From the IMG/VR virus record IMGVR_UViG_3300028025_001299, positions 1 to 39,697 of that record: DNA of 39,697 nucleotides. One strand, written 5' to 3'. The DNA comes from a virus. This document shows positions 9,760-20,040 of this stretch, one piece after another. Numbering within the stretch: position 1 is the first letter of the stretch; every line of letters starts with the position of its first letter. A program made the position numbers and the translations under genes. The notes under the pieces are model-generated. The model made no database searches. It saw only the letters and a program-made list of their open reading frames with translations, and was not told the DNA's origin.

Positions 9760-10317
9760 CTACATCCTTTCCTGGACCACCAACTGTAAAGGCTTGTTAG
9801 TGTTAGCGTCAAGTACCGACGCAATCTCTACAGCTTTACGGGCGTGTCTCTTGGCATAGGCTAGGTCAACGTCAGGTTTGATAACTGAATACAGGTAGCC
9901 AAGAGCAAGCTGACCCCCAGAACCAATGCCATACGTTCCGTGATTTGCTTGGAAAAAAGAGAGATCACAAGCAATACGAAAGATATTGCCGTTAAAAGCA
10001 ATGAGATAATCGAAGCCACCATCTTTGTCCACCTTGTTGTAGTCGTAGTTGTTATCGGTAAATGCTTGGTTGATGCTAGGGATAATCTTGCGTCCCATAA
10101 ATTGGGCTGGATCCTCACCTCGATAGGCAGGCGGCCTCCAGTTATAGGCAAGGATATCTCCAGGGCGTGTGTCCCCTGAGATTCCAATGAGATACTTACC
10201 CACCTCAATAATCTTTGGCGTGGAAGTAGCAATGGTGACTAGGTTGTCTTCGGTGATCTGAGAGTCAGCTACTAGAACAGCGTAGTCAATTCCTTCTACT
10301 CCAACGATTGTGGTCAT
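9760..10317 (-). CDS. Proteasome-beta-like Ntn hydrolase
   Basis: After removal of Met1 the N-terminus would be TTIVGVEGIDYAVLVADSQI, closely matching the mature end of proteasome beta/HslV subunits (TTTVG ... VLAAD). Thr2 would be the nucleophile and Asp18 corresponds to Asp17 of the family. TPKIIEVGKYLIGISGD has the Lys of the Lys33 position, and YGIGSGGQLALGYL matches the Ser129 loop. At 185 residues it has no propeptide. It could act as a self-compartmentalised peptidase or interfere with the host proteasome. It is first in the replication operon; no Shine-Dalgarno site precedes ATG 10317, and a TAGCAT box lies 6 nt upstream, so a leaderless message is likely. Confidence 0.85.
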   Translation of the reverse strand: MTTIVGVEGIDYAVLVADSQITEDNLVTIATSTPKIIEVGKYLIGISGDTRPGDILAYNWRPPAYRGEDPAQFMGRKIIPSINQAFTDNNYDYNKVDKDGGFDYLIAFNGNIFRIACDLSFFQANHGTYGIGSGGQLALGYLYSVIKPDVDLAYAKRHARKAVEIASVLDANTNKPLQLVVQERM

Positions 10318-10323
10318 TGGGCA

Positions 10324-10329
10324 ATGCTA
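10324..10329 (-). promoter_or_regulatory. Leaderless -10 box of the replication operon
   Basis: On the minus strand TAGCAT (TANNNT type) is followed by six bases and then ATG 10317. That spacing puts the transcription start at the A of the ATG, as in actinobacterial leaderless genes. No Shine-Dalgarno sequence is present to offer another explanation. Confidence 0.5.
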
Positions 10330-10332
10330 TAC

Positions 10333-10361
10333 CTAACGGCGTGTCGTCGCGTTAGCGACAC
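10333..10361. promoter_or_regulatory. Interleaved palindromes between divergent promoters
   Basis: GTGTCG (10341-10346) is inverted as CGACAC (10356-10361), centred at 10351. CTAACG (10333-10338) is inverted as CGTTAG (10350-10355). The two sets interleave. The first is centred midway between the candidate start sites at 10317 (minus) and 10385 (plus), covering where both -35 regions would be. An operator for a dimeric regulator is the simplest reading. Confidence 0.5.
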
Positions 10362-10371
10362 CCACTATGGC

Positions 10372-10377
10372 TACCAT
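10372..10377 (+). promoter_or_regulatory. Leaderless -10 box of the lone plus-strand gene
   Basis: TACCAT (TANNNT type) ends 7 nt before GTG 10385. No ribosome-binding sequence is present in between, so transcription probably starts at or next to the GTG. Support is from spacing and from symmetry with the minus-strand box. Confidence 0.4.
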
Positions 10378-10384
10378 ATGAGCC

Positions 10385-10666
10385 GTGAGGCGAATTACTG
10401 TAACGGGGAGCGAAGCTCCTAGCCGTCCGTCTGTGTGGTTCCGTCTACTCACCCTGCCTAAACTCTGGTCTAAACATACCCTTCCTGAGCCTTACGGGGC
10501 CGATCTGCGGGGTTTAGGACCTATCCACGTGTGTACGTGTGGCTCACAAGTCTTTAATGTGATGTGCTCCTTTGAGGATTATGAGCTGGTCTGGTACTTC
10601 CTTGATGCTACCTGTGTTAATTGCGGGAACCTAGTGACCGTGCCTTGCCCTGTTGACGCAGAGTAA
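10385..10666 (+). CDS. Zinc-ribbon protein, 93 aa
   Basis: This is the only plus-strand gene outside the early block. After a basic N-terminal segment it has VCTCGSQVFNVMCSFEDYEL and then TCVNCGNLVTVPCPVD, giving paired Cys motifs CxC and CxxC with further Cys, a zinc-ribbon arrangement. The start is GTG 10385 without a Shine-Dalgarno site, consistent with leaderless initiation. A hairpin (GGAGC/GCTCC, 10407-10419) lies within the first codons. It is transcribed away from the replication operon and toward the late operon's terminator. A regulatory protein is plausible given its place, but unproven. Confidence 0.7.
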   Translation: MRRITVTGSEAPSRPSVWFRLLTLPKLWSKHTLPEPYGADLRGLGPIHVCTCGSQVFNVMCSFEDYELVWYFLDATCVNCGNLVTVPCPVDAE

Positions 10667-10779: not shown

Positions 10780-10816
10780 AAAAAAAGAAGCCCACCCCTT
10801 TCGGGGTGAGCCTCTT
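10780..10816 (-). terminator. Terminator of the late operon
   Basis: On the minus strand, AGAGGCTCACCCC pairs back to GGGGTGGGCTTCT around a GAAA tetraloop and is followed by seven T (10786-10780). This is a canonical intrinsic terminator placed 25 nt after the holin stop codon. The plus-strand gene ending at 10666 runs into it from the other side. Confidence 0.9.
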
Positions 10817-10840
10817 CTGCCTCGCGCTGAGGGTCTATGT

Positions 10841-14542: not shown

Positions 14543-14994
14543 TGTTGCTCCTTTAATAGATGTGGTGCGTATTGATTTAATATCTCTGTGGCGTATTGAA
14601 TCTTGTCTTCTATCTTTTGACCTTTAGGTTGTTTGGTATTCCATAACTCTAGGTTTTCCAAACGATTGTCTAGCCTATTACCGTTCTTATGATGGACATT
14701 CTCACCATCAGTTAACGGTCTTCCTAGATGTTCAGACATAACCAAACGATGTTCTGCTATCCAACCTTTAGTGTCAGAGTTGGGATGACCAAAGGCTGCA
14801 ACATACTTGTATGTTTTCCGTACTCCCTTATGGCCCTTTTCCCTAGCAAACGGATCGTTATATAGTTTAACTCGTTTGTAGTGCATCTGACACATACCAT
14901 TAGCAGTATGTGGCTTTAAGCACTTTCTATTATCTTGTGTAATTATTGTACAGAATTCGTGTTGAACGACCCTGCCGCTACCTTTTCCACCCAT
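14539..14994 (-). CDS. HNH homing endonuclease 2
   Basis: The 151-residue protein parallels HNH 1: an N-terminal Cys/His finger (Cys15, Cys25, Cys35, His38), AEHRLVMSEHLGRPLTDGE, then NVHHKNGNRLDNRLENLELW (His101, His102, Asn104, Asn110) and a closing helix. The two are paralogues with different insertion points. No Shine-Dalgarno site precedes ATG 14994. Instead a perfect TATAAT box lies 6 nt upstream, so this gene appears to carry its own leaderless promoter. It separates the fibre paralogues from the tail gene. Confidence 0.88.
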   Translation of the reverse strand: MGGKGSGRVVQHEFCTIITQDNRKCLKPHTANGMCQMHYKRVKLYNDPFAREKGHKGVRKTYKYVAAFGHPNSDTKGWIAEHRLVMSEHLGRPLTDGENVHHKNGNRLDNRLENLELWNTKQPKGQKIEDKIQYATEILNQYAPHLLKEQQ

Positions 14995-18979: not shown

Positions 18980-20040
18980 TATTTCCTTTCATACCAGCCA
19001 TCTCCCCATAGAGTTAGCAGTCGTGCGAAGTATTGTTCATACTGTGGTGCGATAGCATCCAAGGAATACAAGGACACTGCTCGCTTGTGTATTGCTACTG
19101 GGTCAAGATCCTTTACCCACTCTGTTGCTGCTGCAAACTCCATTGCATTTCTGCAACGGTATCCAGTAACACCATTGGGATTAGTCTCTGTAAAAGCACC
19201 CCAGTCTGTGGTAATCGTTGGAGTTCCACAGGTCTGTGCTTCGATAACAACGTTACCGAAAGGTTCTATGTAGAGCGTTGGAGCAAATAAGGCAGTAGCA
19301 CCGCCCATTAACTTTGCTCTCTCAACAGGTCCTACTGGACCTACCCACTCGCCGTATTCAATCTTTGGGTTATTGCCAGGACCTGCCATAATCAGCTTGA
19401 GTCCTAGTTCCTTACATACGTGCTGAGCAATGACTAGACCTTTACGATCTATCATTCGTCCAACGTATAAGTAGTAATCTTCTTTCTTCTCTTGCAATGG
19501 AAACATCTCAGGCTCTAAGTAACCAGGAATAACTGCATCATAGAAGTTACCATCTACTGCTGTTGGGTTCTTAAACATTGCATAGATGCTGTGCATCCAA
19601 GCGTATGATTCAAACACCTTATACTTGCTAAATACTCCACCGTAACCCACGCCAAACTCTACGGTTATGTGGTTAGGGTAAGCATCTGCAATAGGCTTCT
19701 GAGTAGCACCACCAATAACACAGATAAAGTCTTTTTGTTCTAGGCGCTTGCCTAGTTCCTTGATGGCGTTGCCATTAAAAATCTGCCAGTGCGGAAGGTT
19801 TGTATCAAATGATGCTTCAGTGTAATGACTACCACCCAGAGCCTCTGCTTGCTGCTCTTTAGTGATACAGGTAATCAGTTCATCTACTGGGGCTTCGTTA
19901 TCCTCACCAGCATAGAGATAGACCGTATGGCCTAGCCCTTTCATCATCATACAAAAGCGCCTGACCTTTTCGGTATAGGCGCAGTTGACGTACTCTTTAG
20001 TTGTTTGGGTATGGGGCAGGCTAATAACGTGGAATCTCAT
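18979..20040 (-). CDS. Family-4-like GT-B glycosyltransferase
   Basis: The 353-residue protein has two Rossmann-like halves. The first begins RFHVISLPHTQTT, and the second holds YYLYVGRMIDRKGLVIAQHV and KLIMAGPGN. The donor-site motif is EPFGNVVIEAQ (Glu259 and Glu267, the E-x7-E of GT4 enzymes), then CGTPTITTDWGAFTE. It should transfer a sugar from an activated donor. Lying directly downstream of the collagen-like gene within the virion operon, it may glycosylate that fibre or another virion protein. Alternatives are host wall or DNA modification. Confidence 0.88.
   Translation of the reverse strand: MRFHVISLPHTQTTKEYVNCAYTEKVRRFCMMMKGLGHTVYLYAGEDNEAPVDELITCITKEQQAEALGGSHYTEASFDTNLPHWQIFNGNAIKELGKRLEQKDFICVIGGATQKPIADAYPNHITVEFGVGYGGVFSKYKVFESYAWMHSIYAMFKNPTAVDGNFYDAVIPGYLEPEMFPLQEKKEDYYLYVGRMIDRKGLVIAQHVCKELGLKLIMAGPGNNPKIEYGEWVGPVGPVERAKLMGGATALFAPTLYIEPFGNVVIEAQTCGTPTITTDWGAFTETNPNGVTGYRCRNAMEFAAATEWVKDLDPVAIHKRAVSLYSLDAIAPQYEQYFARLLTLWGDGWYERK

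Follow-up and report, generated by a model that had tools for sequence, protein, structure and literature searches.

Two putative diverging TANNNT promoters around a conserved nine-base box in a widespread group of aquatic phages

The window, by which we mean the whole stretch of DNA that was analysed, comprises 39,697 bases and corresponds to a virus record in IMG/VR; in it, two operons of opposite direction flank a short, putative two-way promoter region at positions 10317-10395. This region forms the border between the replication operon and the late and lysis genes. The replication operon, on the minus strand, begins at 10317 and extends to about 4063; it encodes an HslV-like peptidase, a PD-(D/E)XK exonuclease, a gp49-like protein and WhiB, followed by a DnaB-like ATPase, a RusA-like resolvase, a primase and a sigma-like protein; by gene content, it is the replication operon named in an initial annotation of this DNA. 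The peptidase gene also matches phrog_1040 (peptidase HslV family, E 5e-26), and its ATG at 10315-10317 is kept in relatives. The zinc-ribbon gene stands alone on the plus strand, and the late genes, on the minus strand, run from the right toward it. At 10783-10825 on the minus strand, a GC-rich hairpin (CACCCC-GAAA-GGGGTG) followed by GGCTTCTTTTTTT was missed by a strict terminator scan and is probably the late-operon terminator.

The two flanking proteins, used as queries, recovered 160 loci, and DNA-pattern searches added further, more distant ones; the box described below was required neither by the protein-based searches nor by one of the DNA-pattern searches. After removal of near-duplicates, 113 divergent regions remained, 96 with the box forward (F) and 17 with the box inverted (R), and counts across these relatives do not represent independent events, as shared ancestry overstates their independence. 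No relative of the phage was found among 84,980 bacterial and archaeal genomes; there is thus no sign of lysogeny, and the phage is probably lytic. It carries a WhiB gene and is related to cultured Ca. Planktophila phages; its own host is probably a freshwater actinobacterium. Conservation of its parts in more than 100 related phages marks 10317-10395 as a real control region (Table 1).

Table 1 Features of the control region and its flanks in the window.
Feature	Position	Strand	Remark
HslV/proteasome-like Ntn-hydrolase gene, first in the replication operon	9760..10317	-	PF00227, E 4.7e-11
Putative minus-promoter -10 box, TAGCAT	10324..10329	-	6 nt upstream of ATG 10317
Nine-base box CGGCGTGTC (left palindrome half), proposed binding site of a regulator	10337..10345	+	Fixed distance to plus -10
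Right half CGACAC of the inverted repeat	10356..10361	+	Variable position, often decayed
Putative plus-promoter -10 box, TACCAT	10372..10377	+	34 bp from the box; 7 nt upstream of GTG 10385
Mini-hairpin B, ATGAGCC-GTGA-GGCGAAT	10378..10395	+	Straddles the expected transcription start
Zinc-ribbon ORF, 93 aa	10385..10666	+	GTG in hairpin B loop; conserved core from ~10433
Hairpin C, GGGAGC-GAA-GCTCCT	10406..10420	+	Near the 5' end of the predicted zinc-ribbon transcript
Alternative start GTG (ATG in close relatives)	10433..10435	+	Same position as the ATG of SD-led lineages

The initial annotation had described, at both start codons, a closely spaced TANNNT box and no Shine-Dalgarno (SD) site, and this description stands for each. 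At ATG 10317 there is no SD site in the window, and a TANNNT hexamer lies 5-8 nt before an ATG or GTG in 89 of the 96 non-redundant F regions (6-7 nt in 80 of them), which is beyond chance. Its variants among the relatives include TAGCAT, TATGCT, TAGGAT and TACAAT. In L145 another gene has been inserted after the minus promoter, yet the promoter is still predicted to be leaderless; L145, L148, L154 and L156 carry some 460 extra bases between the minus promoter and the peptidase gene, probably a homing-endonuclease gene, with promoter and box kept. At GTG 10385, likewise without an SD site, the upstream hexamer reads TANNNT at all 221 sites, again beyond chance, and varies only at the three N positions. 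TANNNT was not demanded when the fetched loci were scanned; the DNA patterns fixed at least one base of the hexamer, and none was fixed in the protein-derived loci. A scan for the sigma-70 -35/-10 consensus gave no match at the bidirectional promoter site. Across the window, few other genes have TANNNT beside the start and many have an SD site. Two minus-strand genes, an HNH-like gene at 14994 (TATAAT 6 nt before ATG) and a glycosyltransferase-like gene at 20040 (TAGGAT 6 nt before ATG), are possible leaderless starts inside the late operon.

Between the two hexamers lies the nine-base box CGGCGTGTC, whose sequence is nearly invariant among relatives. In the 96 F regions it is 33-37 bp from the plus -10 (mean 34.4, sd 0.83) and 2-18 bp, mostly 9-11 bp, from the minus -10 (sd 2.5). 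The distance to the plus -10 is fixed while the loop, the right arm of the palindrome and the minus-side distance vary; of the properties of a shared operator, diverging promoters around a conserved site are present, and a conserved distance is found to the plus -10 only and not to both promoters. In the 17 R lineages the inverted box is 42-48 bp from the plus -10 and mostly 12, 24, 36 or 42 bp from the peptidase-side TANNNT, and several of these relatives have an SD site before the peptidase gene, which would be SD-led rather than leaderless. The window holds a single exact copy of the box, with near matches at chance level, on which grounds a regulon of several boxes was rejected. Among 13 related virus records, ten contain one copy, two contain two copies and one has no exact copy, its site reading TGCGTGTC.

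The box forms the left half of an inverted repeat, GTGTCG (10341-10346) and CGACAC (10356-10361), whose centre at 10351 is 34 bp from each start codon. The initial annotation had proposed that one dimer bound to this palindrome would cover the -35 regions of both promoters. The repeat itself is genuine: an inverted repeat of at least 6 bp that includes the left arm occurs in 44 of 66 clusters, whereas shuffled sequences give 3.3%. Its geometry does not support a fixed symmetric dimer site, since among relatives the arms span 5-9 bp, the inter-arm spacing is anywhere between 2 and 10 nt, and many lineages have lost the right arm (L116, L120, L202, L284, L287 and others, with the box-to-plus-promoter spacing unchanged in these five). 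What survives of the proposal is a conserved site between the promoters, through which a bound protein could influence both. Loss of the palindrome with unchanged spacing, which the initial annotation had named as a result that would refute its reading, was found for the right arm, as in L116 and L120, and not for the left. In the distant relatives L405 and L432 the box forms a perfect 9-bp dyad, CGGCGTGTC-N-GACACGCCG, which suggests a binding site of two half-sites, one of which may often be enough. A second, interleaved pair, CTAACG (10333-10338) and CGTTAG (10350-10355), is present in the window as had been noted; it is kept in only 3 of the 96 relatives, as expected by chance, and was rejected as a significant feature, the comparison supporting no role for it. 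The exact 34/34 mirror symmetry is likewise true of the window and not kept across relatives: in GTG-type clusters with a measurable repeat the two start distances differ by -3 to +4 bp, most clusters being off by at most 1 bp and the rest by up to 4 bp. By this comparison, the exact symmetry is a by-product and mostly incidental.

The start codon of the zinc-ribbon gene differs among lineages. In the GTG-type relatives, 124 of 137 distinct sequences read without a stop from the loop GTG into the conserved core, and SD sites are found in none of the 28 GTG-type clusters; GTG 10385 is thus probably a genuine leaderless start in the window's lineage. The in-frame GTG-type leaders have seven different lengths of 57-75 nt, all multiples of three. 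The first 16 codons in the window (10385-10432) keep their frame in relatives and lack a third-position excess, though the core has one, and no selection on the amino-acid sequence of the GTG leader was seen in this codon-position comparison. Four out-of-frame GTG-type clusters have an ATG or GTG at or next to the position equivalent to 10433, and the L011 lineage has lost the leader, its ATG directly following the -10. Among the other-loop clusters with a located core, 29 of 38 have AGGAG-like sites, and most begin with an ATG where the window has GTG 10433. The leaderless plus start of the initial annotation probably holds for the window's lineage; other lineages keep the hairpin with no start codon in it and start downstream, mostly with an SD site; judged from this distribution, GTG 10385 is a lineage-specific use of an older element. 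The SD-led relatives have a structured leader, in which competing base pairings would either sequester the SD region or leave it accessible. Examples are L322:8478-8562, L348:1758-1842, L334:3986-4065 and L335:3464-3541, among others, with pairings GGCCC/GGGCC/GGCCC beside the SD site, or CCTCAC/GTGAGG with paired changes to CCTCGC/GCGAGG. Such leaders are a candidate translational switch without an Rfam family. Starts at a leaderless loop GTG versus downstream, usually SD-led starts offer a natural experiment on the gain or loss of leaderless translation.

The GTG of the window lies within hairpin B, which is composed of outer AT/AT pairs, a tandem GA/AG, a GCC/GGC stem and a GNNA loop. It would straddle the transcription start because the spacing of the minus promoter, applied here, puts that start at the loop G. 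Immediately downstream of the plus -10, relatives have the order AT-GA-GC(C)-loop-(G)GC-GA-AT, with loops GTGA, GTA, GTAA, GAA, GATA, GTTA, GTCA and GGA, and ATA in two clusters. In L025, L037, L051 and L146 the outer AT..AT has become TC..GA, a paired change that is probably one event. We tentatively raise the rather unlikely idea that hairpin B is a functional nucleic-acid element itself, either a DNA hairpin recognised at initiation or the 5' end of a transcript with unusually short spacing, and that in one clade its loop became the start codon. If true, one conserved hairpin would serve leaderless translation in some phages and a structured, SD-led leader in others. Two other interpretations of hairpin B were discarded. 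A hammerhead-like reading of TGA-stem-GAA was rejected because the remaining parts of the catalytic core are missing and there is no Rfam match; the window has none at gathering scores, and nine loci searched with E up to 1 gave one match, far below its gathering score. The pattern was also rejected as a general promoter class, because matches to a 15-base version are estimated to be about as frequent as chance would give for the size of the collection searched; only 30 of 113 of its sites in new loci fall at the same kind of locus. At the place of hairpin C, all 28 GTG-type clusters have a 6-8 bp stem of differing sequence.

The zinc-ribbon protein, a putative regulator in the initial annotation, has a conserved C-x-C / C-x-x-C core. 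It has no family match, DNA-binding families included, and no PDB sequence match, and a fold search with a model of pLDDT 75 gave no significant PDB match; among the weak top matches are zinc ribbons from translation factors and from subunits of RNA polymerase.

On balance, and with moderate confidence, we favour the view that the region is an early promoter acting in both directions, mostly leaderless, whose two sides share one putative regulator-binding box. Two TANNNT promoters would diverge within 10317-10395, the minus promoter starting a leaderless replication-operon mRNA at ATG 10317 and the plus promoter, in the window's lineage, a leaderless zinc-ribbon mRNA at or next to GTG 10385. 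The box occupies roughly positions -47 to -39 of the plus promoter and falls approximately in the -35/spacer region of the minus promoter, so a single protein on CGGCGTGTC could touch both promoters. We infer such binding from the position and conservation of the box, which would act as an operator or activator site coupling both operons. The most likely effect of a bound protein would be to help the plus promoter and cover the minus promoter, and the palindrome would represent a second, weaker half-site, decaying in many lineages. The box-TANNNT geometry, the single-copy box, L145, the kept GTG frame with no SD site in the GTG-type clusters, the L011 type and the dyads of L405 and L432 all count for this shared-box model. 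Against it count the 17 lineages in which the box inverts and shifts, some with SD-led peptidase genes, and the lack of a DNA-binding family match for the zinc-ribbon protein, and the hairpin across the plus start is left unexplained by it.

The strongest alternative, which we hold to be unlikely, is that the two promoters are independent and merely back to back, the box being a plus-only activator site or an upstream contact of RNA polymerase, with no switch. The tight distance of the box to the plus -10 and its loose distance to the minus -10 would follow naturally, and in the cultured phages E7 and F5 the box accompanies a single promoter with no divergent partner. However, the box usually lies 9-11 bp from the minus -10, where a protein bound to it would be unlikely to leave that promoter untouched, and some inverted-type lineages have the box directed at the minus promoter instead. 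It is less probable still that the box, together with the elements beside it, serves to initiate replication and is not a transcription switch. The box does head the replication operon, is usually single-copy and, in E7 and F5, precedes a long AT-rich tract and a GC hairpin, but the window and its close relatives lack the AT-rich tract, there are no repeated initiator sites and no clear skew change at 10351, and the fixed spacing is to a -10 hexamer. Equally improbable is a reading in which the conserved inverted repeats work as hairpins of nucleic acid (a cruciform, or single-stranded DNA or RNA) instead of binding a protein: the palindrome's arm and loop lengths vary freely and the plus-start hairpin keeps its GNA/GNNA loops, tandem GA and paired outer-pair change, but the left arm of the palindrome is invariant while the right is often lost, the site inverts, and the 5' arm of the start hairpin would be untranscribed given the 6-7 nt spacing of the minus promoter.

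Under the shared-box model, the arrangement can be set beside known switches. In switches of the lambda cI/cro type, two early promoters diverge and the site between them can be used by one protein for both. The window is similar in having two diverging promoters with a candidate shared site between; it differs in having one box per genome rather than several operators, and in showing neither a recognisable repressor gene at the site nor any sign of lysogeny. As at leaderless genes of actinobacteria, TANNNT lies about 6-7 nt before the start codon with no SD site. Promoters mapped in Mycobacterium tuberculosis, leaderless ones and others, have TANNNT (Cortes et al. 2013, PMC3898074). In common with the leaderless promoters of that organism, those described here have a TANNNT -10 and no consistent -35, a start codon at the transcription start (here predicted), both ATG and GTG starts, and frequently C at -1 (PMC3898074). 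They differ in belonging to a phage, in diverging as a pair around a shared, conserved box and in having a hairpin across one start.

The closest cultured comparison is with the Ca. Planktophila phages E7 and F5 (OX376640, OX376641; PMC10202952), which have genomes of 39.1 and 38.9 kb with WhiB and sigma-70 genes. They resemble the window phage in genome size, GC content, the WhiB and sigma-70 genes (PMC10202952) and an HslV-like peptidase. In each, one CGGCGTGTC lies in the gap separating the final gene of the lysis region from the exonuclease gene, which is the first of the replication operon, and stands about 37 bp, by manual count on the sequence, before TATACT or TATAAT. Unlike the window phage, they have an AT-rich leader and no divergent pair, the peptidase gene lies within the structural operon and the zinc-ribbon homologue (E 2e-12) is encoded elsewhere in the genome. 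The corresponding loci (L480:295-440 and L482) run from CGGCGTGTC through TATACT/TATAAT and a long AT-rich tract to a GC hairpin whose loop is GGA or GAA. Because E7 and F5 keep the box and -10 without the divergent layout, this pair outlives the divergent arrangement. For a group of aquatic phages that is widespread and has cultured relatives in E7 and F5, the region would offer a control point that is precisely delimited and present in a single copy.
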